From positions 186,001 to 250,000 of the forward strand of contig NZ_CP050307.1 of the NCBI RefSeq assembly GCF_014189535.1: 64,000 bases of DNA, written 5' to 3'. Below, piece by piece: positions 39,919 through 53,365 of the stretch. How positions within the stretch are numbered: position 1 is the first letter of the stretch; the number at the start of each line of letters is the position of its first letter. The notes under the pieces were generated by a model. The model did not search any database. It saw only the letters and a program-made list of their open reading frames with translations, and had not been told where the DNA came from. The position numbers and the translations under genes were made by a program. The DNA comes from Rhizobium lusitanum. GTDB lineage: Bacteria; Pseudomonadota; Alphaproteobacteria; Rhizobiales; Rhizobiaceae.

Positions 39919-39924
39919 TTGCCC

Positions 39925-41022
39925 GTGACGAGTGTCGAGCTGACATCGAAACGCGATTCCCGCGGCAGCATGGATCGGGATGCGTTCGCGGATACGCCGC
40001 CGCATCCGCTGATCGCCCTCCTGCGGCGATTGGCGGGCCGCGCCGTGGCGATCGTCACCACGCTGCTCGGCCTGCTGTTCCTTACCTTTTCGATGGGACG
40101 CTTGCTTCCCGCCGACCCGGTGCTTGCCATCACTGGCTCGGAGGTCAGCAAGGCGGTCTATGATCGCGTCTATAACGAGCTGGGGCTCGGCCAGCCGATC
40201 TGGATGCAATTTCTGTCCTATGTGGGGAAGATCGGGACCGGCGATCTCGGCACCTCGGCCACGACCGGCCAGCCCATCCTGACCGATCTCATGAGCATTT
40301 TCCCGGCGACCATCGAGCTTGCCATCATCGCGATGATCATCGGCATTGTTGTCGGCGTCCCGCTTGGCATTACCGCAGCCGTCAGGCGCGGCACGGTCAT
40401 CGACCACATCGCGCGCATCGTCGCCCTTGCCGGCCATTCCATTCCGATCTTCTGGATGGGGCTGATGGCGCTGTTTATCTTCTACGCAAAGCTCCAGCTC
40501 GTTGGTGCGTCGGGCCGGGTCGACGTCCTGTATGAAGGGCTTGTGACGCCCGTCACCGGCTTTCTGCTGATCGATTCCGCCATGGAAGGCCAGTGGGACG
40601 TGTTTCAAAGCGCGCTCAATCACATCATCCTGCCGGGGACGATCCTCGGCTATTATTCCGTGGCCTCTATCTGCCGCATGTCGCGCAGCTTCATGCTGGA
40701 ACAGCTCGGCCAGGAATATATCGTCACGGCAAGGGCAAAGGGGCTTGGACGGCGCAAGGTCGTCTGGCGCCATGCCTTCCGCAATATTCGGGTGCAATTG
40801 CTGACGATCATGGCGCTGACCTTCGGTGGCCTGCTGGAGGGCGCGGTGCTGATCGAGACGGTTTTCGGCTGGCCCGGCCTCGGCCAGTACCTCACCCGCG
40901 GGCTACAGATGAACGACATGAACGTCGTTATGGGCGCTGTGCTGACGATTGGCGCTGTCTTCCTGACCATCAACATCATTTCGGATGTGCTTTATCGCAT
41001 TCTTGATCCAAGGACACGGTGA
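39925..41022 (+). CDS. ABC permease, DppB type
   Basis: A 365-residue permease. The GTG start at 39925 has AAGGAG 9 bases ahead; a TTG at 39919 is too close to it. A hydrophilic N-terminus of about 35 residues precedes the first helix, followed by ELGLGQPIWMQFLSYVG, a periplasmic insert, the EAA loop YIVTARAKGLGRRKVVWRHAF and the end VLYRILDPRTR. Its stop overlaps the next start (GTGA). Confidence 0.92.
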   Translation: MTSVELTSKRDSRGSMDRDAFADTPPHPLIALLRRLAGRAVAIVTTLLGLLFLTFSMGRLLPADPVLAITGSEVSKAVYDRVYNELGLGQPIWMQFLSYVGKIGTGDLGTSATTGQPILTDLMSIFPATIELAIIAMIIGIVVGVPLGITAAVRRGTVIDHIARIVALAGHSIPIFWMGLMALFIFYAKLQLVGASGRVDVLYEGLVTPVTGFLLIDSAMEGQWDVFQSALNHIILPGTILGYYSVASICRMSRSFMLEQLGQEYIVTARAKGLGRRKVVWRHAFRNIRVQLLTIMALTFGGLLEGAVLIETVFGWPGLGQYLTRGLQMNDMNVVMGAVLTIGAVFLTINIISDVLYRILDPRTR

Positions 41023-41963
41023 CGCCGATGACGATCTCCGCCGAACACACAGATCGCGCCAGCGGCAACGGCTTTCGCAAATGGCTGCTCGCGCCCGAGC
41101 CCCAGGGCTGGTTCCAGTCGTCCGCGCAGCAATTCCATCAGGGCTGGTTGAAGTTCCGCCTGCATCCGCTCGGTCTTGTCGGGCTTGCCATCATCGTCCT
41201 ACTGATTCTCGTCGCCATCGCTGCGCCCTTGCTGACGCGGTACGATCCGATCGTGCAGGACATGGCGGGACGGCTCGCGCCGCCATCGGTGGAGCATTGG
41301 CTCGGCACCGACAATTTCGGCCGCGATGTCTTTGCCCGCATTGTCTATGGCGGGCGCACGACGCTCTATATCATCATGCTCGTCTCGGTCATCGTAGCGC
41401 CCTTGGGTCTGCTGATCGGCACCTGTTCCGGCTATTTCGGCGGCATTGTCGATGAAGTCCTGATGCGGATCACCGACATCTTTCTGTCCTTTCCCGGGCT
41501 GGTGCTGGCGCTGGGGTTTGCGGCGGCGCTCGGCCCCGGCATCACCAATGCGATCATCGCGATTTCGCTGACGGCCTGGCCCCCGATTGCCCGGCTTGCG
41601 CGCGCCGAAACGCTCAGCCTGCGCAAGGCGGATTTCATTGCCGCCGTGCGTCTGCAGGGCGCGTCGTCGCTTGCGATCATCACCCGCCAAATCCTGCCGA
41701 TGTGCATCCCCTCGGTCATCGTGCGCGTGACCCTCAACATGGCCGGTATCATCATCACCGCCGCCGGCCTTGGCTTTCTCGGCCTCGGCGCGCAGCCGCC
41801 CTGGCCGGAATGGGGGTCGATGGCAGCCACCGGTCGCGAATTCATGCTCGACAGTCCCTGGGTCATTGCCGCACCCGGCATCGCCATTGCGCTGGTGAGC
41901 CTTGCCTTCAACCTCGTCGGCGATGCGCTGCGAGATGTCCTTGATCCGAGAGGCGCGGAATGA
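41019..41963 (+). CDS. ABC permease, DppC type
   Basis: A 314-residue permease beginning at a GTG that overlaps the DppB stop by four bases; AAGGA lies just ahead, and an ATG three codons later is the alternative. It has LGTDNFGRDVFARIVYGGR, the EAA loop DFIAAVRLQGASSLAIITRQILP and the terminal DALRDVLDPRG. Its stop overlaps the ATPase start (41960), continuing the coupled operon. Confidence 0.92.
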   Translation: MTPMTISAEHTDRASGNGFRKWLLAPEPQGWFQSSAQQFHQGWLKFRLHPLGLVGLAIIVLLILVAIAAPLLTRYDPIVQDMAGRLAPPSVEHWLGTDNFGRDVFARIVYGGRTTLYIIMLVSVIVAPLGLLIGTCSGYFGGIVDEVLMRITDIFLSFPGLVLALGFAAALGPGITNAIIAISLTAWPPIARLARAETLSLRKADFIAAVRLQGASSLAIITRQILPMCIPSVIVRVTLNMAGIIITAAGLGFLGLGAQPPWPEWGSMAATGREFMLDSPWVIAAPGIAIALVSLAFNLVGDALRDVLDPRGAE

Positions 41964-42817
41964 GCTCTTCCCTCATCGACATCAACAATCTCGAAATTGC
42001 TTTTGGTGGCGGCTCCGTGCGGGCCGTGTGCGGCGTCAGTTTTTCGCTGGGGCAGGAAAAGCTCGGGATTGTCGGTGAATCCGGCTCCGGTAAATCGACG
42101 GTCGGTCGTGCCATCATGCGGCTGCTGCCGCCGACGGCAATGGTCAGTGCCGAGCGGATGAGTTTTCGGGACGTGGATCTGCTGAAAGTGGACGAGCGCA
42201 AGATGATGACGATCCGCGGGCGGCGGATCGGGCTCATCCTGCAGGACCCGAAGTATTCGCTCAATCCGGTCATGCGCGTTGGAGAGCAGATCGCCGAGAC
42301 CTATCGCCTGCACTATCCCAAGGCGAGCGCGAAGCAGGCCTATCGACAAACGCTCGAGATGCTCGACGCGGTCAAAATCCGTGACGTTGAAAGCGTGGCC
42401 CGGCTCTATCCGCACGAGATATCGGGCGGCATGGGCCAGCGCGTGATGATCGCCATGATGCTGATTGCCGAGCCCGAGGTTCTGATCGCCGACGAGCCGA
42501 CGTCCGCGCTCGATGTCACGGTGCGGCTGGAAATTCTTGCCTTGCTGGATGAGCTCGTCGCTCGTCGCAATCTCGGCCTGATCTTCATCAGCCACGACCT
42601 GAACCTCGTGCGCAACTTCTGCGACCGCGTGCTGATCATGTATGCCGGACGGGTCGTCGAGGTTCTTGAAGCGCGAGACCTCGACAAGGCGAGGCATCCC
42701 TATACGCAGGGCCTGCTTGCTTCGCTGCCGTCGATCGACGATCCGCCAGCCCGGCTGCCGATCTTGAAGCGCGATCCGTCCTGGCTCGATAGCAAAGTTT
42801 TGGAGACGTCGCGGTGA
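41960..42817 (+). CDS. ABC ATPase, DppD type
   Basis: A 285-residue ATPase: Walker [10 protein letters not shown] (residues about 39-47), Q-loop LILQDPKYSLNPVM, signature ISGGMGQRVMIAMML, Walker B LIADEPTSALD, H-loop FISHDLNLV and the C-terminal HPYTQGLLASLPS oligopeptide-transporter segment. It lacks the long C-terminal cysteine-containing tail of E. coli DppD. Starts and stops overlap neighbours by four bases on both sides. Confidence 0.93.
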   Translation: MSSSLIDINNLEIAFGGGSVRAVCGVSFSLGQEKLGIVGESGSGKSTVGRAIMRLLPPTAMVSAERMSFRDVDLLKVDERKMMTIRGRRIGLILQDPKYSLNPVMRVGEQIAETYRLHYPKASAKQAYRQTLEMLDAVKIRDVESVARLYPHEISGGMGQRVMIAMMLIAEPEVLIADEPTSALDVTVRLEILALLDELVARRNLGLIFISHDLNLVRNFCDRVLIMYAGRVVEVLEARDLDKARHPYTQGLLASLPSIDDPPARLPILKRDPSWLDSKVLETSR

Positions 42818-43572
42818 TCGAAATCGACAATCTCACCATCCGCTTCGCCGCCGGCCAGAGGCCGGTCGTGAGGAATGTCAGCTTCGGTGTCGAGAAGGGC
42901 ATGGCCTTCGGTCTGGTCGGTGAATCCGGTTGCGGAAAATCCACGGTGCTGCGCGCCATCTCCGGTCTCAATCCGAATTACCAAGGCAGCATCGAGCTGG
43001 ACGGCGACATTCTGGACCGGCGGCGCGACCGGCCCTTCTTCCGCCGGGTGCAGATGGTGTTTCAGGACCCTTACGGGTCGCTCCATCCCCGCAAGACCAT
43101 CCGCTCTCAGCTTAAAGAGCCGCTTCGCAACCAGGGGATCGCGACCGGTTCGTTGGACGTCGATGCCCTGCTGCGTTCCGTCGGGCTCGATCCAGCGCTC
43201 AGTTTCCGGTTCCCACATCAGCTTTCCGGCGGACAACGCCAGCGCGTCGCCATCGCCCGCGCCCTGGTTCTCAACCCGGCCGTCCTGCTGCTCGACGAGC
43301 CGACATCCGCGCTCGATGTCTCTGTCCAGGCCGAAATCCTCAACCTGTTGGACGACCTGCGCCGGGAACGCGGCCTGACCTATCTGCTCGTCAGCCACGA
43401 CCTCGCCGTCGTCTCCCACATGTGCAGCCGCGTCGCCATCATGGAAGCGGGGGAGATCGTCGAACAGGTGGATATCGAAAGGCTGCGAAAGGGAGAGGTG
43501 GAGCACCCCTATTCGCAGCGCCTGCTGCGGGCGAGCAGGATGTATGGTAGGCAGCATGAGGTTATTGCTTAA
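42814..43572 (+). CDS. ABC ATPase, DppF type
   Basis: A 252-residue ATPase starting with GTG at 42814, overlapping the DppD-type stop. Walker A GESGCGKST, Q-loop MVFQDPYGSLHPRKTI (typical of DppF), signature LSGGQRQRVAIARAL, Walker B LLLDEPTSALD, H-loop VSHDLAVV. It ends the FadR-DapA-ABC operon. No clear terminator follows before the toxin-antitoxin promoter. Confidence 0.93.
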   Translation: MIEIDNLTIRFAAGQRPVVRNVSFGVEKGMAFGLVGESGCGKSTVLRAISGLNPNYQGSIELDGDILDRRRDRPFFRRVQMVFQDPYGSLHPRKTIRSQLKEPLRNQGIATGSLDVDALLRSVGLDPALSFRFPHQLSGGQRQRVAIARALVLNPAVLLLDEPTSALDVSVQAEILNLLDDLRRERGLTYLLVSHDLAVVSHMCSRVAIMEAGEIVEQVDIERLRKGEVEHPYSQRLLRASRMYGRQHEVIA

Positions 43573-43624: not shown

Positions 43625-43864
43625 ATGAGCACGATGAATATTTCCCTGCCAGAAAGCCTCAAGAGTTTCGTCGACGAACAGGTCTCGGGGCGCGGGTACG
43701 GCACGAGCAGTGAATATGTCCGGGAATTGATCCGCAAGGATCAAGATCGTCTAAGCCTACGCAAACTGCTGTTGGACGGAGCGTCATCTGCGGCGGCAGA
43801 ACCGGTCGACGCGAATTATTTTGACAGCTTGCGTGATCGAGCGCGTGGCCTGCGAAGCAAGTGA
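43625..43864 (+). CDS. parD: ParD-like type II antitoxin
   Basis: A 79-residue antitoxin. Residues 1-45 (NISLPESLKSFVDEQVSGRG followed by YGTSSEYVRELIRKD) form the ribbon-helix-helix DNA-binding domain of the ParD/CopG class; the C-terminal half, rich in acidic and Ala residues, would bind the toxin. It overlaps the toxin start as GTGA. It most likely represses its own promoter, which lies directly ahead. Confidence 0.9.
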   Translation: MSTMNISLPESLKSFVDEQVSGRGYGTSSEYVRELIRKDQDRLSLRKLLLDGASSAAAEPVDANYFDSLRDRARGLRSK

Positions 43865-44190
43865 GCAGCAAGGCAATTATCCCACGGGAATTGGCTCGCC
43901 GCGATGTTGAGGCAGCCGTAGACTATTATTCACGCGAAGCCGGAACAGAGGTCGCGCTGGGCTTCGTCGATGCTCTACAGGCGGTTTATGATCAAATCGC
44001 CGATCATGCCGGTTCCGGATCTCTACGATATGCTTATGAACTAGGGATAGCCGACCTCCGGAGCATTCCGCTGCAACGATATCCATACCTGGTTTTCTAT
44101 CGCGACCAGTCAACGCATATCGACGTTTGGCGCGTGCTTCACGCCAAACGCGACATTCCACAATGGATGCAGGAACAGCACCATTCCTAG
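43861..44190 (+). CDS. parE: ParE/RelE-family type II toxin
   Basis: A 109-residue toxin starting with GTG. Family blocks are ARRDVEAAVDYYSREAGTEV near the N-terminus, FVDALQAVYDQIADHAGSGS, LRSIPLQRYPYLVFYRD and the closing VWRVLHAKRDIPQWM, the usual ParE C-terminal arginine block. ParE toxins poison gyrase. The stop TAG at 44188-44190 overlaps the stop of the convergent phosphatase gene in a shared CTAG. Confidence 0.9.
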   Translation: MSSKAIIPRELARRDVEAAVDYYSREAGTEVALGFVDALQAVYDQIADHAGSGSLRYAYELGIADLRSIPLQRYPYLVFYRDQSTHIDVWRVLHAKRDIPQWMQEQHHS

Positions 44191-44978
44191 TCGTTCGGAT
44201 AGTCCATCGTGATCTCCAGCCAGAGCGGCTCAGTCGCCGCCAGCAAGGCCGGTGTCCCGGCCGCGATCCAGGGTATGCGGCTTGCGGGGTCTTCACCGAT
44301 CCGCACCTCAAGCCCGGCCTCGCGGGCAAGTACGGCGCCGCCGGCTATGTCCCACATCGTCGTCACCTTTTGCAGGTGTCCGTCGAAAATGCCGCGTGCG
44401 GCAAAAACGAGGGAGATGGATGTCGAATGGAAGGCTTCGACGACCCAGCCGGCGCGTCTTAGTCCGGTTTGAAACCTGGCGGCATCGTCCAGATCGTCGG
44501 CGGGGTTGTCGCCAAGCGACATGACGCGGACGTCCTCCAACGGGGTGGTGCGGGCAAGCGGCTTGCCGTTCATCAGCAGACCAGTGCCATCGGCGGCCGC
44601 ATATATTTCACCCATAACCGGCATGGCAACAATGCCGAGTTCAGGGCGGCCACTACGCACGAAGCCGAGCGAAATTCCCCAAAGCGGCGAGCCCCGGAGA
44701 AAGTTCGATGTGCCGTCGATCGGGTCGATAATCCAATACGAGCCTTCGGATTGCCCGCCGAATTCCTCACCGACGATCGCTTCGCCGGGAAAGGTGGTAG
44801 CAAGCCGTTCGCGGATGAAGTTTTCGACGGTCGTGTCGGCTTCGGAGACGAAATCCTGCACACCCTTGGCATGGGTGGGGACAGACTGGTGCGCTGCAAA
44901 GAAATGCAGCGCCTTGTCAGCGGCTTCCTCGATGATCGCGCTCGCCTGCGACAGGCGCTGGTTGGCGATGGGCATCAT
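44187..44978 (-). CDS. Inositol-monophosphatase-family phosphatase
   Basis: A 263-residue Mg-dependent phosphatase. Metal ligands are in place: Glu71/Glu72 in VGEEFGG, Asp85-Pro-Ile-Asp88-Gly-Thr in WIIDPIDGTSNF, and the late Asp in TTMWDIAGGAVLAREAG. Such enzymes dephosphorylate inositol, histidinol or sugar phosphates. The start overlaps the phosphodiesterase stop by four bases (ATGA), so the two are translationally coupled, arguing that it acts on the product of that enzyme. Last gene of the operon. Confidence 0.92.
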   Translation of the reverse strand: MMPIANQRLSQASAIIEEAADKALHFFAAHQSVPTHAKGVQDFVSEADTTVENFIRERLATTFPGEAIVGEEFGGQSEGSYWIIDPIDGTSNFLRGSPLWGISLGFVRSGRPELGIVAMPVMGEIYAAADGTGLLMNGKPLARTTPLEDVRVMSLGDNPADDLDDAARFQTGLRRAGWVVEAFHSTSISLVFAARGIFDGHLQKVTTMWDIAGGAVLAREAGLEVRIGEDPASRIPWIAAGTPALLAATEPLWLEITMDYPND

Positions 44979-45853
44979 GAATTCCTCTTCTCATGGCCGG
45001 CGAGCCATTGCTTGAATGGCGCAATCGTATCCGTCTGGACGGCGCCGGTGCCTACCTCGGCCAAGGTGCCCCAGACGCCCTGGGGGTCCACGAGCGCCCG
45101 GCTGTCGTTGAAATCGAGGTTATGGGAGACATCGAGCGTGTTGATCCACAGACGGATGTTCTGGCGTTCCAGTTCCGCGCGCCCGGCGGCGAGGTCGGCT
45201 ATATCGGAAAACTTGACCTCCACCATCGGTGCGCGCAATGGCTCGATCAGCTTCAGGTCTTCCGCGAACTGTCCGGGCCTGACGCGAAACATCGGCATAT
45301 GCGGGATGGAGCCGAACCAGTCGGCGTCGATCACCGGAAAATGGCCGGATGCCGGCTCGATATCGGTCTTGATGATGATCTGATCCTGCATCTCTAGGCG
45401 CTTGATCGTGGCGATCACCAGCGGCAAGTCACGCGGATATTTCGTGTCGATGTTCACGAAGATCCGTCCGCGGGCCTCTTCCAGCGCTTCTTCCAGCGTC
45501 GGAATACGCTCGTCGGTCACTGCCGCCGTCTGTCCGCCACCACCGGCGCGAAGGCGAGCGTTGCGGACCGTGGCGAGATCGCAGGCGCTGACGACGCCTG
45601 TGCCGGTCGATGTCCGGTCAAGCGTTGCGTCGTGAATGACGACAAGCTTTCCATCGGCCGTTGCCTGCGTGTCGATCTCGACGATTTCCACATTGAGCGC
45701 TGCCGCGTCGCGGATCGATGTCAGCGAGTTTTCCGGCGCTGCCGTCCACAGGCCGCGATGCGCGATAGTGAGAATATCCGGGTTGCTGCGTGACATGAGG
45801 GAGAAGACGTCAGCGAAACGTGCGGAGCGGGAGGCAGCAGTCTGGTCGGGCAT
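44975..45853 (-). CDS. Glycerophosphodiester-phosphodiesterase-family enzyme
   Basis: A 292-residue GDPD-type TIM barrel. Catalytic and metal residues: His32-Arg33 in IAHRGLW, Glu41 in PENSL, Glu59 and Asp61 in VEIDTQATADGK, and His74-Asp75 in VVIHDATLDR. No signal peptide, so it acts in the cytoplasm on an imported diester. It follows two permeases in the same operon and is coupled to an IMPase-family phosphatase. Agrocinopine phosphodiesterase AccF belongs to the same superfamily; the true substrate here is unknown. Confidence 0.92.
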   Translation of the reverse strand: MPDQTAASRSARFADVFSLMSRSNPDILTIAHRGLWTAAPENSLTSIRDAAALNVEIVEIDTQATADGKLVVIHDATLDRTSTGTGVVSACDLATVRNARLRAGGGGQTAAVTDERIPTLEEALEEARGRIFVNIDTKYPRDLPLVIATIKRLEMQDQIIIKTDIEPASGHFPVIDADWFGSIPHMPMFRVRPGQFAEDLKLIEPLRAPMVEVKFSDIADLAAGRAELERQNIRLWINTLDVSHNLDFNDSRALVDPQGVWGTLAEVGTGAVQTDTIAPFKQWLAGHEKRNS

Positions 45854-45891
45854 GGGGAGAACTTTCGGGTGGTTGGGGTTTGGGAGGAGGA

Positions 45892-46755
45892 TCAGATCTT
45901 GCCCATTCCGGCCGCCATCAGGTCGTCGCGCAGGATACGTCCGGCAAGAACGAAGATGATCAGGGCAGGAAGGAGCAGGATGAAGGCGATGATCGATGCC
46001 AATGGCAATTGCATCGAATAGGGGTCGAGGAACATGTAGAGCTTGATCGGCAATGTCTGAATGACAGGCGAGCCAACGATGAAGGACTTGTCGAACTCTT
46101 CGAAGCTGCCGATGAAGGAAAGCAGCCCGCCGGCGAGCAATCCGGGTACGGCGAGCGGCAGGATGACATGCGTCAGAACGCCGATACTTCCCGCGCCAAG
46201 CGACCGCGCGGCGTGAATGAGGTCGTCCGGAATGGTTTCGAGCGATGCGGTCATCAGCCGGATCATCAACGGCAGTGTGCCGACGATCTGGACGAGGATG
46301 ACGCCGGCCATCGAATAGGAGAGACCAAGTAGCAGGAAGATCTGGCCGATGCCGACGGCAACGACGAGGCCGGGAATGATGATGGGTGCGAGGATGAAGA
46401 TTTCCACGACGCGTTTCAGCCGGAACGGAAAGCGCGCCATGGCCCAGGCCGTCGGCAGGGCGATGATTGCGGTCGCCAGGGTCACGACGATGGCGATGAC
46501 GAGGCTGTTCAGCGTGGCGCTCAACAGATTGGCATCGGCGAGAACATCCAGCCAGCGGCTGATCGTGTAGTTTTGCGGCACGATATGTGGCGGGGCCCAG
46601 CCGTCGGCGACACTCCAGAGGAACATCAGCGCCAACGGCAAGGCGATGACCAGCGCCAGCATGAGGTATAGCCCCGCCGAGACGATGATGCGATCGTCCT
46701 CGGTGAAGGTGCGGCGTCGGGGCAGGGCGGGGGAGGTATCGGCAAGCGTGCTCAT
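45892..46755 (-). CDS. ABC permease, PotC/FbpB-like (second subunit)
   Basis: A 287-residue permease of the spermidine/iron/phosphonate type: six helices, starting with LYLMLALVIALPLALMFLWS, and an EAA loop DDLIHAARSLGAGSIGVLTH. Its ATG shares one base with the stop of the preceding permease gene (TGATG at 46757-46753). Forms a heterodimer with that partner. Confidence 0.9.
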   Translation of the reverse strand: MSTLADTSPALPRRRTFTEDDRIIVSAGLYLMLALVIALPLALMFLWSVADGWAPPHIVPQNYTISRWLDVLADANLLSATLNSLVIAIVVTLATAIIALPTAWAMARFPFRLKRVVEIFILAPIIIPGLVVAVGIGQIFLLLGLSYSMAGVILVQIVGTLPLMIRLMTASLETIPDDLIHAARSLGAGSIGVLTHVILPLAVPGLLAGGLLSFIGSFEEFDKSFIVGSPVIQTLPIKLYMFLDPYSMQLPLASIIAFILLLPALIIFVLAGRILRDDLMAAGMGKI

Positions 46756-47609
46756 CAGGTGTCTTTCTTCGCGGAGCCGAGGCCGATCCTGGCGGTCAGC
46801 GTGTAGTAGGCAATCAGCACGGCAATGGCGAAGAGGCTGAGAACCATCCCCATCGCATAGACCTGCGGAAACCTGCCCTGGCTGAATTCGGCGACCATCA
46901 GCACAGACAGCGGTCGTGCGACCGGCGGGCCGACGATGTCGGGAATGGCGTAGGAGCCCATCGAACCGATGAAGGTCAACAGGATCGCTGCGGTGATGCC
47001 CGGCATGGCGAGCGGCACCTCGACGAAGAGGAATGTGTTCAGCCGTGAGGCGCCGAGCGAGCGTGCCGCCAGGCGGATATCTTCCGGAACGGCGGCAAAG
47101 GCGCTGGTGATGATCAGCGTCATGAAGGGGATCTGTTTCCACACCGTCGAAAGGATGACGCCGACGCCCCAATCGTCACGCACGAGCTTCGGCAGGCCGA
47201 GACCCAAGGGCGCGAGCAGCCGGTCGAGAAAACCGCCGCGTTCGGCGACGATGATCACCATCAGTGCGACGATGATGCTGGGGACGGCCATCGGCAGCTT
47301 ATAGAGCCCGTTGAACAGCTTACGTCCGAGGAAGCTCCGGCGAAGCAGCAGCGCCAGCGGAATAGAGGCCAGGAGCGAGACGACCACCGGGGCGACGCCG
47401 TAATAGATCGAAACCGACAGTCCGCGCAGCATCGATGGCCGGGTGAAGATGCGCGTATACCATTGCAGCGTGAAGGAGCCGTCATCAAGGTGAAAGCTGC
47501 CGATCAGCGCTGAGAGCAGCGGCCAGCCGAAGAAGAGGAGAAGGTAGCCGACACCGGGTGCCAGCAGCAGAAGAAGCCTTGCGCGGTCGCTACCGAGGAC
47601 AGGGCGCAT
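46755..47609 (-). CDS. ABC permease, PotB-like (first subunit)
   Basis: A 284-residue permease: LLLLLAPGVGYLLLFFGWPL as first helix, then the EAA loop EDIRLAARSLGASRLNTFLF. The start shares a base with the ATPase stop at 47609. The PotB/PotC pairing and order (SBP, ATPase, permease, permease) match the PhnSTUV/PotABCD/Fbp class of importers, which carry polyamines, phosphonates and Fe3+ among others. Confidence 0.9.
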   Translation of the reverse strand: MRPVLGSDRARLLLLLAPGVGYLLLFFGWPLLSALIGSFHLDDGSFTLQWYTRIFTRPSMLRGLSVSIYYGVAPVVVSLLASIPLALLLRRSFLGRKLFNGLYKLPMAVPSIIVALMVIIVAERGGFLDRLLAPLGLGLPKLVRDDWGVGVILSTVWKQIPFMTLIITSAFAAVPEDIRLAARSLGASRLNTFLFVEVPLAMPGITAAILLTFIGSMGSYAIPDIVGPPVARPLSVLMVAEFSQGRFPQVYAMGMVLSLFAIAVLIAYYTLTARIGLGSAKKDT

Positions 47610-48652
47610 CAGGCAGCTCCCGCGAATTCCCGCTCGTCGAGCAGATGTGCAGCACCTTGGAAACCGATCGCGACATGGGTGCCGGGGGCGAGCAGTGCAT
47701 CGCCACCCGCCTGGGCGACCTTGAGCGTCACGTCACCAACGGCGACCTTATAGAGAACATTGGCGCCCATGAAGGAGACCGAAGTGACGACGCCGGAACC
47801 GAGGTTGTTCGGCGAAACCGACATGGCTTCCGGGCGGACGGAAACGCGGGCAGGCCCGGTGGCAGTTGCGTCGAGCGCGATAGTCTCGCCCCAGGGCAGG
47901 CGTGCTCTGACGCCTTCGGCGGTAACGGACAAAAGGTTTGTCTGGCCGAGGAAGCTTGCGGTGAAGGCTTTTTTCGGAGCGCGGTAGAGTTGCTGTGGCG
48001 TGCCGGTCTCGACGACGCGGCCCGCATTCATGACGACGATGCGGTCGGACATCGCCATGGCTTCCGACTGGTCGTGTGTCACATAGATGCTGGTCGCGCC
48101 GATACGGCGATGCAGCTCGACGAGTTCGTGGCGCAGCGTATCGCGGAGTTTGGCGTCGAGATTGGAGAGCGGCTCGTCGAAGAGCAGTAGGGACGGCTGC
48201 ATGACGATCGCACGGGCAAGCGCCACGCGCTGCTGCTGTCCGCCCGACAATTGCCGCGGCATGCGCTCGGTAAGGCCCGTCAGATTGCAGATGTCGATCG
48301 CGTGTTCGATACGCTGTGCCCGCTCAGGCTTGGCAACGCGTTTCATCCGCAGGCCGAAGGCAAGGTTCTTGCCGACCGACATATGCGGGAAGAGCGCATA
48401 GGACTGGAAGACCATCGCAATGTCGCGAGCCTCCGGAGGCAGGGCATCGATCCTTTGTCCGGCTAGATGGATTTCGCCGGCGCTTGGCCGGCTGATCCCC
48501 ATCAGGATACGCAGAAGCGTGGACTTGCCGCAGCCGGATGGGCCGAGGATGGTGACGAACTCGCCGCGCTCGACATCGATCGACACGGGATGGAGCGCGC
48601 GGCTTGTGGCGTAGTCCTTGGTAATATCTCTGATTTCAAGCGCGGTCATCAT
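47609..48652 (-). CDS. ABC ATPase, PotA/FbpC type
   Basis: A 347-residue ATPase: Walker A GPSGCGKST (residues about 35-43), Q-loop MVFQSYALFPHM, signature LSGGQQQRVALARAI, Walker B LLLFDEPLSNLD, H-loop YVTHDQSEA, and a TOBE_2 domain near residues 270-340. It follows the SBP gene after a perfect stem-loop. Confidence 0.92.
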   Translation of the reverse strand: MMTALEIRDITKDYATSRALHPVSIDVERGEFVTILGPSGCGKSTLLRILMGISRPSAGEIHLAGQRIDALPPEARDIAMVFQSYALFPHMSVGKNLAFGLRMKRVAKPERAQRIEHAIDICNLTGLTERMPRQLSGGQQQRVALARAIVMQPSLLLFDEPLSNLDAKLRDTLRHELVELHRRIGATSIYVTHDQSEAMAMSDRIVVMNAGRVVETGTPQQLYRAPKKAFTASFLGQTNLLSVTAEGVRARLPWGETIALDATATGPARVSVRPEAMSVSPNNLGSGVVTSVSFMGANVLYKVAVGDVTLKVAQAGGDALLAPGTHVAIGFQGAAHLLDEREFAGAA

Positions 48653-48680
48653 GGCGTTCCGTCATTCTGGGAAGAGGGGT

Positions 48681-48705
48681 GGACCGGACGCCCCACGTCC
48701 GGTCC
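48681..48705 (-). promoter_or_regulatory. Intercistronic stem-loop after the SBP gene
   Basis: GGACCGGACG (48681-48690), 5-nt loop, CGTCCGGTCC (48696-48705): a perfect 10-bp GC-rich stem 20 bases after the SBP stop and about 30 bases before the ATPase start. No T-run. Confidence 0.7.
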
Positions 48706-48724
48706 GGCAGCGGTCCGGCTTCCG

Positions 48725-49954
48725 CTACTGATTGAGCACTTTTTCATTGAGTGCTTCGGAAAGCGCCGTCGCCATATCCCAGAAGGCGGTCACCGACAGT
48801 CGCGGATAGACGCTGTCCGGCAGGACATGGGCCCGGGTCTCAGCCGAAATCAGATTGTCGCTGATATCCGTGCGCGGCGAGCGGGAGGCCTTGTGCTCGA
48901 GTTTCCAGGTCTGGAAATCCTTGCTGAAGGCCATGTCGATCAAAAGCAGGGCGGCGGCGACATGCTTGGCATTGGCGGGCACGAAGATCGCGTCGCCCGA
49001 TCCGACCTGGCCGCCCTTGAGCAGCGTCAGGCGGAAGCTGTCGGGAAGCTGCTTGTTGCCGAGGAACGTCATGACCTGATCTTCCCAGACCGTGCCCATG
49101 TAGAGCTGCTGATTGTTGATGAGGTTCAGCGTGTCGGCATTGCCGTTTGTCAGTTCCGATACCTTGAGAAGCTTGCGGTAGTAATCCCAGACCGGCTCGA
49201 GGCACTCCGACGTCATCGCCCAGTCCTCGGCCTGCTCGAGGCTTTGCGAATAGTCCGTCAGCTTGGCGCGGCAATCACCCTTGAGATAGTTGAGCGCGAC
49301 CGAGTAGATGAAGCCGCTGCCCGAGCCGCCCTTGGACGGCAAGGTTACGCCCAGCCGTTTCGGGTTCTTCTCGGCCCAGGCCAGCAGATCGTCGAAATTC
49401 CTTGGCAGATCGGCCTCCTTGACGAAGGCGGAATCGTAGCCGATCGCCGTCTGGTTCATGTGGACCAGCGGAAAGGCGCCGCCATGCGGCTTGCCGAAGA
49501 CGGTCTCGGCCAGAACGGGATCGTAGTGATCCATATTCGGCAGGATCTTCGTCAGTGCGATCTTACCGACGACGCCGGTGGACGACAGCAGCGGATAACC
49601 GCCGCCGCCGGCGAAATAGACATCGACCGGGGCATCCTGACCTGCCTTCTGCACGGCAATCAGCTGTTGGTTTGCCTGATCGCCGACAACGTCGGTGTAG
49701 TTGACCTTGATGCCGTATTTCGCCTCGAAACGAGTGGTCAGCTCTTTCCATGTATCGCTGAAACTGCCGGCGAAATTGTACATGGTGACGGTGCCCTCGG
49801 CTTTGGCGAGGGGAACGACGACGTCATAGAAATTGTCACGGCTGACCTTGGAGAGATCGAAATCCAGGTTCTTCAAGTTCGTGTCGGCCGCATGCGCCGG
49901 CAGCGTGGCGGTCGCCAGGATCAGCGCACCGATGGCGAGACATTTCATGATCAT
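48725..49954 (-). CDS. ABC solute-binding protein, PotD/Fbp-like
   Basis: A 409-residue periplasmic binding protein, signal peptide MIMKCLAIGALILATATLPA ending AHA. Mature blocks include TVTMYNFAGSFSDTWKELTT, FEAKYGIKVNYTDVVGDQAN and DVYFAGGGGYPLLSS, typical of family 6/8-like polyvalent anion and polyamine binders. The ATG at 49954 is chosen because GGAG lies 6 bases ahead. First gene of the phosphodiester operon, divergent from the ROK regulator across a palindrome. Confidence 0.9.
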   Translation of the reverse strand: MIMKCLAIGALILATATLPAHAADTNLKNLDFDLSKVSRDNFYDVVVPLAKAEGTVTMYNFAGSFSDTWKELTTRFEAKYGIKVNYTDVVGDQANQQLIAVQKAGQDAPVDVYFAGGGGYPLLSSTGVVGKIALTKILPNMDHYDPVLAETVFGKPHGGAFPLVHMNQTAIGYDSAFVKEADLPRNFDDLLAWAEKNPKRLGVTLPSKGGSGSGFIYSVALNYLKGDCRAKLTDYSQSLEQAEDWAMTSECLEPVWDYYRKLLKVSELTNGNADTLNLINNQQLYMGTVWEDQVMTFLGNKQLPDSFRLTLLKGGQVGSGDAIFVPANAKHVAAALLLIDMAFSKDFQTWKLEHKASRSPRTDISDNLISAETRAHVLPDSVYPRLSVTAFWDMATALSEALNEKVLNQ

Positions 49955-49987
49955 CGAGATCTCCAACGAGAGGGAATGTTGCTCTCG

Positions 49988-50016
49988 TTGCTATTAATAC
50001 ACTTTAAGTGTAATAT
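49988..50016 (+). promoter_or_regulatory. Predicted promoter of the ROK gene with embedded operator
   Basis: TTGCTA (49988-49993), 17-nt spacer, TAATAT (50011-50016). The perfect inverted repeat TACACTT-T-AAGTGTA occupies 49998-50012, bridging spacer and -10 box. On the minus strand a TTGTCA upstream and TATTAA downstream of the same palindrome could serve the SBP operon, so one operator would control both directions. Confidence 0.6.
49998..50012. promoter_or_regulatory. Putative ROK-regulator operator
   Basis: TACACTTTAAGTGTA: two perfect 7-bp arms around one T, in the short region between the divergent SBP and ROK genes. Its position over the promoter suggests autoregulation and repression of the phosphodiester operon. 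Confidence 0.65.
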
Positions 50017-50098
50017 TTGTGACAAGTCCAGCAAAAAAGCTCCTCTGGGCAAGGTGTGGTGGATTGCGAGCCTTCGTCCGAGCGGCTAAGCCAGAGGC

Positions 50099-51247
50099 AT
50101 GACCACGCAAACTGCTTCCCCGCCCAGGTTCGACATGTCGCCACTGGCCAGCGACAATGAACGGATGATCCTCGATATCGTGCGCCGTCACGAGCCGATC
50201 GCGCGCTCCACGATCACGGCGCATACCAATCTGACCCAGCAGTCCGTGCACCGCCTTGTGGAAACGCTCATGGAGCGCGGTCTTCTTCGCACAGGCGCGC
50301 CGCTCAAGGGGACGCGCGGCCAGCCAAGCCCGACGATCGAGCTGGTGAAAGAGGCCGTCTATTCCCTCGGCATCTCGATCAATACCGATTCAGCCATCCT
50401 GTATCTGGCTGATTTCGGCTGCAATGTGGTTGCGGAAGAAACCCTGCGGATGGTGCCGAGCGATCGGCAGGCAACCATCGCCACGCTTTTGGACGTTCTT
50501 CAAACTATCCTGAAGAAGCACGGCATATCGCGTGACCGCCTTCTGGGGCTTGGCTTTTCGGTGTCCGGCTTCTTTGTCACGGACAATCGCGAATTCAACG
50601 CGCCCGAGCCGTTGCGGGACTGGTCGCTCATCGATCTGCGCACGGATCTTGAGAGCGCCTTCGAGCTTCCCGTGTGGCTGGAGAATAACGCGACGACGGG
50701 TGCCATCGGCGAGAGCCTGCGTGGCGCCGGTCTCTGGTGTTCCACCTTCGCCTATCTTTCCTTCAACTACGGTTTCGGCGGCGGCCTCATCCTGGACGGC
50801 AAGCCCTTTTACGGCTTTCACGGCAATGCCGGCGAATTCAGCGGCATCTACAATTCGGATGAATCGCCAAAGCGGCCTGCCTTGCAATATCTGATCCAGA
50901 CGTTGCAGGAGAATGGTATCGACATTCGTTCGATCGATGAATTGCGCCAGCGCTTCGATCCATCCTGGCCCGGCGTGGAGGAATGGCTGGAGCAGACGAT
51001 GCCGATGCTGGACCGGTTGATCGTGACTCTGATCGCCGTGCTTGATCCGCAGGCGATCGTGTTCGGAGGGCAATTGCCGCAGGAGCTCGGACGCATGATG
51101 ATCGCGCGGGCGCATATGTCGTTCACGCGCGTTCACCGATATGGTGTCGGACCGCGGGAAGCCAAACTCGTGCTCAGCGAGACGCGAGGGGATGCCGGCG
51201 CGATCGGCGCTGCCCTGCTGCCGTTGAAACTCCGGTATTTCCTGTAG
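50099..51247 (+). CDS. ROK-family transcriptional regulator
   Basis: A 382-residue NagC/Mlc-type protein. N-terminal winged HTH (residues about 20-70) with PIARSTITAHTNLTQQSVHRLVET; then the ROK sugar-kinase-like fold with LGLGFSVSGFFV, PVWLENNATTGAIGESL (the ENDA-type active-site block) and GFGGGLILDGKPFYGFHGNAGE. The zinc motif CxCGxxGC found in most ROK proteins is absent, so it is probably a sensor without kinase activity. Divergent from the phosphodiester operon; likely its regulator. Confidence 0.9.
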   Translation: MTTQTASPPRFDMSPLASDNERMILDIVRRHEPIARSTITAHTNLTQQSVHRLVETLMERGLLRTGAPLKGTRGQPSPTIELVKEAVYSLGISINTDSAILYLADFGCNVVAEETLRMVPSDRQATIATLLDVLQTILKKHGISRDRLLGLGFSVSGFFVTDNREFNAPEPLRDWSLIDLRTDLESAFELPVWLENNATTGAIGESLRGAGLWCSTFAYLSFNYGFGGGLILDGKPFYGFHGNAGEFSGIYNSDESPKRPALQYLIQTLQENGIDIRSIDELRQRFDPSWPGVEEWLEQTMPMLDRLIVTLIAVLDPQAIVFGGQLPQELGRMMIARAHMSFTRVHRYGVGPREAKLVLSETRGDAGAIGAALLPLKLRYFL

Positions 51248-51277: not shown

Positions 51278-53365
51278 TCAAGCGATCGAGCGGCGGCTGA
51301 TGCGGACAAGCGGGATGCGGCCGGAAAACGATACCGGAAACTCAGCGTCGATGCTTTCTTCAGGCAGAAATATCTGCCCGACGGGCTTGGGCCGTCCGAG
51401 GAAAAAGCCCTGGGCTTCGTCGCAGCCTTCGACCCGCAGAATTTCGAGCTGGTGGTTCGTTTCGACACCTTCGGCAAGAACCGGGATTTCCAGGCTCCGG
51501 CCAAGCGTCAGGACTGCCCGCACGATGGCTTTCGCCTGGATGCTGCCCTCCACCTCGCTCATGAAGGAACGATCGAGCTTGATCTTGTCGAAGGGGAACG
51601 AGCGCAGCGTATCGAGCGACGAATAGCCCGTTCCGAAATCGTCTATGGCAATGGTCACGCCCAGCGCCTTGATCTGGCGCAGCACATGGAGTGTGCGGGT
51701 CTTGTCGGCGATGATGGTGGACTCGGTGATTTCGAGCTCCAGCCGGCTTGGCGACAAGCCCGTTTCGAGCAGGACTTCGTGGACAAGGCGAGCCAGATCG
51801 GCGTGGGCGAACTGGACAGGCGAGAGATTGACGGCGATCTTGTAGCGCTTGTCCCAGGAGGCAGCCTGCTTGCAAGCCGTGCGCAGCACCCATTCGCCGA
51901 TTGCGAGGATAATGCCGCTTTCCTCCGCGATCGGAATGAATTCCGCCGGCGGCACCTTGCCGCGTTCGGGATGGTTCCAGCGCGCCAGCACCTCATATCC
52001 GCAGACCTCGCCCGTGCGAACCGAAGTCTGTACCTGATAATGCAGCTCGAGCTGGTCCAGTTCGACGGCGCGGCGCAGATCCTGGGCGAGGGTGTGACGT
52101 TCGCGGGCGGCTTCATCCATCTTGGATTCGTAGAAGCAGACGACGCGCCCGATATCCGCCTTGGCGCGGTACATCGCCAGGTCGGCATTGCTGACAAGAC
52201 GCTCCTGATCGCGTCCGTCATCCGGATAGACAGCGACGCCGATACTGGCGCCGGTCACCGTCTCGAAATCGTCGATCCGTATCGGTTCGAACATGGTCTT
52301 CTCCAGCCGCGCCACGAAGTCCAGAAGTTCGTTTTGCCCGTTGAACCGCTTGACGGCCGCGAATTCGTCGCCGCCGACGCGGGCGACGAATTCGCCGTCC
52401 TTCACCAGACGCGCGAGCCGGCGTCCGATCGCCTTCAGGGCCTGGTCGCCGGCCTTGTGTCCACGAAGATCGTTGATTTCCTTGAAGCGGTCGAGGTCGA
52501 GGCCGATGACGGCAAGCTTTGCGTTCTCCCGTTCCGCCTGTTCCATCTCATGGTTGAGATGGTCGGCAAAACTGCCGCGGTTGGGGAGACCCGTCAGCAA
52601 GTCGTTGAGCGCCATGTGCTGGAGCTTCTGAATGGATTCTTGTGTAGCACGCTCGTCGATCATGTAGCTGGCGACGCCTGTGCCGACGATGAGCAGGCCG
52701 ACGCCCGCGACCGCAATCGCTATGGCCTGTAATACGTGGGGGTCGGTACCCGTGGCACCTGTCGCCAGTGGGGTGAGCGATACGGCGGCCATTGCGGTGA
52801 AATGGAGCACCACGACGGCCAGGACAAAGAGAGCGAGCGCGAGGAGAGGCGAATGGCGCCAGGGCCGACGGATGGCCTGGCTGAAGGCAAATGCCGCGAT
52901 GACCATGGACAGCATGATCGAGCTGATCACGTAATCGACGTTCCACTCGATAATGCCATCGACGTGATAGGCCATCATACCGGTGTAGTGCATGGCCGAG
53001 ATCGCCAGACCGATGACCACGCCACCTACTTCTGGTGCGATTTTGAAACCACGCAGCGAGGCGGTCGTAAAGCCGAAGGCGCAGCCCGCCACGGCCACCA
53101 GCAACGACACCATGGTCAGGATCGGATCGAAGGTGATCGCCGCTTTGGCCTCATAGGCGAGCATAGCGATAAAATGGGTGCACCAGACCGAGGAGCCGGC
53201 CGCCATGGACGTCAGGAACAACCATCCGCCACGCTGAAGTCCCTGTGTCGTCTCCGACCGCCGCAGCAGGTTAAGAGCTATCCACCCGCCGCTGATACAG
53301 ACAAACGCCGCGAGAAGAACGAGCCACAGATTATGCTCTGTGGCGATACATGAAATGACGCGCAC
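51278..53365 (-). CDS. MHYT-GGDEF-EAL c-di-GMP signalling protein
   Basis: A 695-residue membrane sensor. MHYT integral domain at residues 1-240 (about seven helices) with three motif copies: CTHFIAM (62-68), AMHYTGM (124-130) and VLHFTAM (186-192), proposed in the family to bind metal or gas ligands. GGDEF 331-335 is intact (VGGDEFA); the c-di-GMP inhibitory RxxD site is not seen. The EAL domain from about 430 has the variant GYEVLARW plus LELEITES, IDDFGTGYSSL, DKIKLDRSF and LAEGVET, which keep the metal and catalytic residues. Both synthesis and hydrolysis of c-di-GMP look possible. Start is GTG at 53365. Confidence 0.93.
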   Translation of the reverse strand: MRVISCIATEHNLWLVLLAAFVCISGGWIALNLLRRSETTQGLQRGGWLFLTSMAAGSSVWCTHFIAMLAYEAKAAITFDPILTMVSLLVAVAGCAFGFTTASLRGFKIAPEVGGVVIGLAISAMHYTGMMAYHVDGIIEWNVDYVISSIMLSMVIAAFAFSQAIRRPWRHSPLLALALFVLAVVVLHFTAMAAVSLTPLATGATGTDPHVLQAIAIAVAGVGLLIVGTGVASYMIDERATQESIQKLQHMALNDLLTGLPNRGSFADHLNHEMEQAERENAKLAVIGLDLDRFKEINDLRGHKAGDQALKAIGRRLARLVKDGEFVARVGGDEFAAVKRFNGQNELLDFVARLEKTMFEPIRIDDFETVTGASIGVAVYPDDGRDQERLVSNADLAMYRAKADIGRVVCFYESKMDEAARERHTLAQDLRRAVELDQLELHYQVQTSVRTGEVCGYEVLARWNHPERGKVPPAEFIPIAEESGIILAIGEWVLRTACKQAASWDKRYKIAVNLSPVQFAHADLARLVHEVLLETGLSPSRLELEITESTIIADKTRTLHVLRQIKALGVTIAIDDFGTGYSSLDTLRSFPFDKIKLDRSFMSEVEGSIQAKAIVRAVLTLGRSLEIPVLAEGVETNHQLEILRVEGCDEAQGFFLGRPKPVGQIFLPEESIDAEFPVSFSGRIPLVRISRRSIA

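Follow-up and report, generated by a model that had tools for sequence, protein, structure and literature searches.

A conserved ROK-linked operon of Rhizobium lusitanum, probably for the use of a phosphodiester

What is carried into the cell by an importer of the Pot/Fbp type whose genes run on into those of a phosphodiesterase and a phosphatase? The question is raised by a locus of Rhizobium lusitanum in a stretch of 64,000 nucleotides of contig NZ_CP050307.1 (assembly GCF_014189535.1), which we call the window, and which lies on a 2.4-Mb contig (C4) in a genome of 6.94 Mb and five contigs. Here we present evidence that this locus is a real, conserved and regulated operon, probably for the utilisation of a phosphodiester. 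With moderate confidence we read it as a catabolic operon repressed by a regulator of the ROK family, through which a small phosphodiester, most likely of carbohydrate type, would be imported, cleaved and dephosphorylated. Its features, in window coordinates, are these:

50099–51247, plus strand: ROK-family transcriptional regulator, divergent from the gene of the substrate-binding protein (Pfam ROK, E 4.5e-24; MarR_2/IclR-type helix-turn-helix)
49998–50013, minus strand: palindromic operator TTACACTTAAAGTGTA, with a core TACAC-N5-GTGTA conserved upstream of ROK genes
48725–49954, minus strand: periplasmic substrate-binding protein (SBP), Pot/Fbp/YnjB-like, 409 amino acids (Pfam SBP_bac_8/SBP_bac_1)
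47609–48652, minus strand: ATP-binding cassette (ABC) transporter ATPase (Pfam ABC_tran and TOBE_2)
46755–47609, minus strand: ABC permease 1 (Pfam BPD_transp_1)
45892–46755, minus strand: ABC permease 2 (Pfam BPD_transp_1; best NCBIfam model PotC, below its cut-off)
44975–45853, minus strand: GDPD-family phosphodiesterase with a C-terminal DUF4996 domain (Pfam GDPD, 3.9e-22; DUF4996, 5.7e-24)
44187–44978, minus strand: IMPase-family phosphatase (Pfam Inositol_P, 1.6e-41)

An earlier sequence-only reading had placed six such genes on one strand with a divergent ROK regulator, and both points are borne out: the six lie on the minus strand with Pfam support for each, and the regulator is where it was said to be. 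The span then claimed, 44187..50016, covers the six genes, but its end takes in the operator and leaves the ROK gene outside. Likewise, the overlaps of stops and starts reported there exist at three of the five junctions (ATPase/permease, permease/permease and GDPD/IMPase), but a gap of 72 bp separates SBP from ATPase and one of 38 bp separates permease from GDPD. The SBP gene starts with an ATG at 49954, with GGAG ahead of it. Both enzymes possess their catalytic motifs. The GDPD protein, whose second domain, DUF4996, spans residues 185–284, matches the putative GDPD of PDB entry 3i10 at 4.7e-36 over 22–280, sharing the HRG..W...APEN, EID and HD motifs; inspection of the protein by eye revealed no signal peptide, and its nearest named relatives (91–92%) are in Rhizobium rhizogenes NBRC 13257 and OV677 and in Rhizobium sp. 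ICMP 5592. The IMPase aligns with 2pcr and keeps DPIDGT and the WDI region. A listing of GDPD homologues ran to at least 120 entries, none of which went into the comparisons below.

How firmly do importer and diesterase belong together? A search with the SBP through 394 Rhizobiaceae genomes gave a match at 1e-40 in 16 of them. All 14 orthologues of at least 74% identity, our own genome included, are followed on their own strand by ATPase and permeases and then, at a distance of about 3 kb, by a GDPD-DUF4996 gene. The remaining two matches, chromosomal and 42–44% identical (loci L190 and L191), stand in the order LacI-IMPase-SBP-ATPase-permeases-AccF-like GDPD. Beyond the family, an SBP profile run at 1e-60 over 398 genomes of the phylum, with at most four candidates scored per genome, returned our own genome only, and DUF4996 itself occurred in two of 385 genomes of the class, again counting our own. 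Among plasmids, SBP relatives at 1e-20 occur in 22 records, several of them near-identical and Agrobacterium vitis F2/5 present twice, and in 21 of the 22 the operon contains a phosphodiesterase gene: six are GDPD-DUF4996 genes of the window's type, three DUF1868 and twelve other GDPD genes, the one of these that was scanned (L200) giving a GDPD match and no DUF4996. The last record is a fragment beside an IS66 element. Eighteen of these operons were opened with annotation, H105 and H108 were read from coordinates, and H102 is the region read as L108.

Approached from the regulator, the result is the same. At 42% identity or above, 148 genomes of the genus hold 62 ROK relatives, and every one is linked to a phosphodiesterase gene: in 60 it is GDPD-DUF4996 on the same contig, within 7 kb in 59 and at 10.2 kb in one, and in the other two it is GDPD with DUF1868 (L223) or DUF1868 alone (L224). 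Matches at 37–39% are a separate paralogue, of which the only copy inspected, that of our own genome, has no visible diesterase. The ordered set thus recurs in other Rhizobiaceae genomes and plasmids, among them plasmids from A. larrymoorei and, with the IMPase absent, from R. tumorigenes and R. rhododendri. In R. tumorigenes 1078 and 932 the operon lies on CP117258 and CP117264, and the Ti plasmids named in the literature are CP117257 and CP117263 (PMC10410297). Because linkage is conserved in all three counts (14/14, 21/22 and 62/62), we can set aside the possibility, raised with the original proposal, that the enzymes are neighbours only by chance in related genomes; the arrangement is also not peculiar to this genome. 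We propose a ROK-linked phosphodiester group, defined by a divergent ROK gene of at least 42% identity and by an importer and a phosphodiesterase in one operon. The window has both properties, and its importer-less relatives lack the second. On a plasmid of Deinococcus gobiensis (L198, 5256–11359), LacI, an SBP (48%), ATPase, permeases and DUF1868 stand together, the same kind of importer with a different diesterase.

The palindrome in front of the SBP gene, also part of that proposal, proves to be conserved far above expectation. Of 79 regions upstream of ROK genes, 64 contain its core, TACAC-N5-GTGTA, without a mismatch and 73 with at most one, compared with 0.013% and 0.8% of 7,900 mononucleotide shuffles. 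The 79 regions include duplicate fetches (L001/L079, L002/L080, L003/L081, L004/L082, L012/L087 and L007/L107) and related species, so these rows are not independent and the counts measure conservation rather than 79 separate events. In loci like the window (Type A) the operator sits in a block reading GTCAYAAATAT-TACAC-N5-GTGTA-nTAAT. It is common to loci with Pot-type importers, with CUT1-type importers and with no transporter at all. In an alignment restricted to rows that have no more than one operator mismatch and do not lie too close to an end, most rows show the GTCA element upstream, starting at a distance of 11 bases for Types A and C and of 13 for Type B. The Ti-type operons described below, L223 and L224 lack an exact core.

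In our own genome TTACACNNNNNGTGTA is found at only two loci, and TTACAC-N5-GTGTA marks the operon's operator and a site before the 38% ROK paralogue. We rejected that second site as a further member of the regulon because there is no diesterase among the genes scanned there. The paralogue (G000:C4:1514919-1516086) has its similar palindrome at its own start and lies near AraC-type regulators and a GMC oxidoreductase. A scan for promoters and terminators gave nothing above shuffles. Directly ahead of the SBP ribosome-binding site is a 9-bp inverted repeat, CAACGAGAG/CTCTCGTTG (49964–49990), which is not retained in the L003 row. A block CTTGTCACAAATATTACAC (50008–50026) overlaps the operator and resembles a −35 element; it also resembles what we take to be a Pho box, and could mean phosphate control of the operon.

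If the regulator and its operator are constant, which of the other parts are? We read gene-order strings for 80 loci chosen by a GDPD or DUF4996 match (60 regions from 96 places and 20 further regions, mostly best-scoring) and assigned each to a type. Thirteen were window-like (Type A), 26 had a CUT1-type importer (Type B, in one of which, L110, the SBP was not detected), two were variants (L154, L156), 28 had no importer between ROK and GDPD (24 with GDPD only and four with GDPD-IMPase), nine were lone GDPD genes and two were of other kinds (L147, L152). The 24 GDPD-only loci have a ROK gene within 8.5 kb in 19 cases and at 10.2 kb in one, with none found in four; catalytic motifs are kept, without a stop, in all 24. 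Loss of the importer can be seen directly in L001 and L002, whose DNA follows the window from 50212 to 49972 and resumes at 45912; the importer has therefore been deleted, and the diesterase now stands directly behind the operator. L004 retains separate pieces of the SBP gene. The phosphatase too varies: in L007, L008 and L107-L109 no IMPase was detected, and a NUDIX gene follows, 52–56% identical to the NUDIX of the Acc locus. DUF1868, which is the 2H-phosphodiest model of Pfam, joins or replaces GDPD in L015, L198, L201, L205, L223 and L224, taking its place in L224 under a related ROK and a CUT1 importer. Several loci stand apart from these types. A second, diverged Pot-type SBP (25%) lies on the other side of ROK in L146 and L153; L016 (Devosia) is apparently a decayed copy with split ROK, permease, ATPase and GDPD pieces, as apparently is L221 (pTiLBA1191), with split or unannotated genes; and in a genome of the genus, L223 (6014–15981) holds a relative of the Ti-type operon with GDPD and DUF1868, followed by a Na/Pi cotransporter and NUDIX.

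The nearest functional model is Acc, by which Ti plasmids catabolise agrocinopine (L010) and which likewise has an SBP-dependent ABC importer, a GDPD diesterase, an IMPase phosphatase and a dedicated regulator. There agrocinopine enters the cell and AccF splits it, giving arabinose-2-phosphate, AccG is a putative phosphatase, and the effector of the repressor AccR is that product and not the diester (PMC4526662). The window operon works like Acc but is not Acc. Its transporter is of Pot/Fbp type with one TOBE_2 ATPase, whereas that of Acc is of peptide type with two ATPases (one annotated oligopeptide/dipeptide), and its regulator is a ROK protein, whereas AccR is DeoR-type (DeoR/GlpR in L010). 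Acc-like logic on a different transporter was foreseen by the sequence-only reading; the different regulator can be added to it. What does not survive is its claim that the enzyme pair is the same. In the phylogeny of the diesterase against AccF, GDPD-DUF4996 proteins form a clade of their own (100/99) with AccF, which has no DUF4996 match, and the Ti-type GDPDs outside, although long branches are flagged; AccG, of the same Pfam family as the window's IMPase and 32% identical to it, groups with L156 and falls outside the clade (100/98) that holds the window and the Ti-type enzymes. These trees and that of the ROK proteins are midpoint-rooted.

The closer kin on Ti and other Agrobacterium plasmids is a second operon. 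SBP relatives of 28–30% identity are found on pTi_CFBP2407, pTiAg57, pTiLBA1190, pTiLBA1191, pAvCG412, pAtAg67 and two A. vitis F2/5 plasmids, in the order ROK, ATPase, permease, permease, SBP, GDPD, IMPase, with one permease unannotated in L204, L219 and L221. This Ti-type operon (L200, L202, L203, L204, L206) resembles the window in its Pot-type importer with an SBP of 28–29% identity, its GDPD-family diesterase and its related ROK and IMPase, which in L200, L202, L203 and L204 are 48–50% and 44% identical to the window's, and the ROK tree places its regulators with the window's on one side of a 99/99 split from most CUT1-type ones. We read as artefacts the position of a very long row (L005, 31726) among the Ti rows of that tree, and that of the DUF1868-linked ROKs L201 and L205 (24–26% identical) among the CUT1-type rows. 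The Ti-type operon differs in having the SBP after the permeases, a GDPD without DUF4996 (L200), no exact TACAC-N5-GTGTA, and extra genes: among ten Ti-type stretches, two pairs of which are the same plasmids sequenced twice and some of which end early, a Na/Pi cotransporter is annotated in nine, traR in nine and sucrose phosphorylase in seven. On pAvCG412 of A. vitis (L202, 1229–14810) the operon has all three for company and adjoins a gene that the record itself labels agrocinopine synthase, with a RolB-family gene beyond. This kinship of transporter, ROK and IMPase, once beside an annotated agrocinopine synthase, goes beyond the earlier proposal. We infer from it that the pAvCG412 operon may serve agrocinopine use, and regard the operon as a candidate second, non-Acc route of agrocinopine type. 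The Ti-type operon may be already described, pTiAg57 being the subject of Hooykaas et al. 2022, as cited in PMC10745273.

Other systems are alike in part. The CUT1-type relatives (L009, L013-L015, L110-L127 and others) share the divergent ROK (41–49%), GDPD-DUF4996, usually an IMPase-family gene and, in most, the operator; they differ in their CUT1/UgpC-type importer, in IMPases of another clade and in sometimes having two GDPDs and no IMPase. In Xanthomonas, the xanR-xanT-xanP cluster holds a ROK gene and a transporter, and xanthosan, a sugar phosphodiester, is hydrolysed by the 2H-phosphoesterase XanP (PMC12807533). Import and hydrolysis of a sugar phosphodiester beside a ROK gene are thus its likeness to our operon, and a 2H enzyme also occurs among the window's relatives in the form of the DUF1868 genes, but the system uses a TonB-dependent outer-membrane transporter and a 2H enzyme where the window has an ABC importer and a GDPD; the word "phosphatase" is absent from the paper's main text (PMC12807533). 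Our literature searches found no paper on DUF4996 and none linking agrocinopine with the ROK family, only unrelated work on YnjBCD and on at least four of GDPD, IMPase, ABC transporter, ROK and Rhizobium together, and, among the matches listed, nothing useful on glycerophosphoinositol with ABC transporters in bacteria. UgpBAEC with UgpQ takes up glycerophosphodiesters by coupling an ABC importer to a GDPD. Its curated models do not claim our proteins, which fall under the cut-offs of UgpC, UgpA and UgpE and of the NCBIfam glycerophosphodiester phosphodiesterase model, and the window operon differs also in being under ROK control.

From the anatomy, linkage, operator, kinship and exchange of modules that we observe, we infer the biochemical steps, inducer and substrate as follows. 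The SBP would bind the intact diester in the periplasm and the ABC importer would carry it into the cell, where a cytoplasmic GDPD-DUF4996 enzyme would cleave it to an alcohol (or sugar) and a phosphomonoester, which the IMPase-family enzyme would hydrolyse to a second sugar or polyol with release of inorganic phosphate. Either the diester or the monoester product probably binds ROK and releases it from the TTACAC-N5-GTGTA operator, by analogy with the action of arabinose-2-phosphate on the unrelated repressor AccR. The earlier idea of a different sugar or polyol diester imported, cut and dephosphorylated gains here from the conserved linkage of importer, diesterase and phosphatase; it loses the Acc enzyme pair as its premise.

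Could the ligand be another one? A structural model gives no choice: an AlphaFold2 model of the last 405 residues of the SBP (predicted local distance difference test, pLDDT, 93.5) has PotD, MctA, FbpA and AfuA among its Foldseek neighbours and UgpB-GPC and AfuA among its VIA rows, and the comparison did not separate ligand classes. That the importer takes an ordinary Pot/Fbp ligand (a polyamine, ferric iron or a phosphonate) in an accidental neighbourhood of enzymes has in its favour that the SBP and ATPase families are common to just such systems, yet the linkage counts speak against it, and we hold it very improbable. The family models count only weakly against it: the SBP matches YnjB below its cut-off, the top NCBIfam models of the ATPase (PhnT2, UgpC and PotA) are each under their own cut-offs, and polyamine, iron and phosphonate models stay below theirs, because these are the best 25 of 189 and the best 25 of 34 matches only; polyamine binding stays compatible with the sub-threshold matches to the curated PotA, PotB and PotC models.

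Several observations do weigh against our reading. In 28 of 80 loci the diesterase is kept although no transporter separates it from ROK, distantly related DUF4996 proteins stand by themselves (L192, L193), the phosphatase is optional among relatives, and we found no known substrate for the diesterase family. One may picture a diester made inside the cell, with ROK and GDPD forming the core and the importer an addition that can be parted from it, as the persistence of ROK and an intact-looking diesterase in many Rhizobium loci and the clean deletion in L001 and L002 would suggest; we think this unlikely to a marked degree, for the slot between ROK and GDPD is occupied by importers of two different types, SBP relatives accompany phosphodiesterases also in loci that lack GDPD-DUF4996, and another importer could supply the substrate in importer-less genomes. 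A fair rival, though on balance an unlikely one, is the scavenging of glycerophosphodiesters, in which the imported compound would be what remains of a phospholipid after deacylation, such as glycerophosphoinositol or bis(glycerophospho)glycerol; GDPD would cut it, and the IMPase would take the phosphate from the resulting inositol-phosphate or glycerol-phosphate. Against it, the relatives whose surroundings tell most have a gene for agrocinopine synthase, for sucrose phosphorylase or for aldose epimerase; the NCBIfam matches of the regulator are to sugar regulators and sugar kinases, though all under cut-off; and the annotated tables that we opened showed no glycerol or inositol catabolic gene, no search having been aimed at them. 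On the whole a phosphodiester of carbohydrate type, similar to agrocinopine, is the most likely substrate, ahead of any glycerophosphodiester.

On its far side the operon adjoins a peptide-type ABC transporter of two permease and two ATPase genes (39919–43572, plus strand). Similar genes flank the operon in L001-L004, and relatives that lack the operon's importer could perhaps use them in its stead. The IMPase gene faces a convergent toxin-antitoxin pair of ParD/ParE type (43628–44190, plus strand), of which L001 and L002 match only about 25 ParE residues and L003 neither gene. A MHYT-GGDEF-EAL signalling protein (51278–53365, minus strand) adjoins the ROK gene.

To our knowledge the sugar phosphodiesters documented as bacterial nutrients are few: the agrocinopines, used through Acc, and xanthosan, known in this role since 2025. 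As a tentative and rather doubtful extension, we suggest that the Rhizobiaceae may possess an unrecognised modular family of ROK-controlled carbohydrate-phosphodiester loci, in which importer (Pot or CUT1) and diesterase (GDPD-DUF4996, AccF-like GDPD or DUF1868/2H) are interchangeable round a conserved regulator; Ti plasmids would have taken one as a second, non-Acc opine route of agrocinopine type tied to traR, while others would feed on an undiscovered sugar phosphodiester from plants or microbes. The present work suggests a role, open to experimental test, both for GDPD-DUF4996 proteins and for a group of Pot-like transporters currently labelled only "extracellular solute-binding protein" or "YnjBCD". 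The relationship of the operon to one beside an opine-making gene suggests an under-explored feeding route of plant-associated bacteria, and, if our reading is true, sugar phosphodiesters would be a wider nutrient trait of the Rhizobiaceae, and opine systems could have arisen from it.

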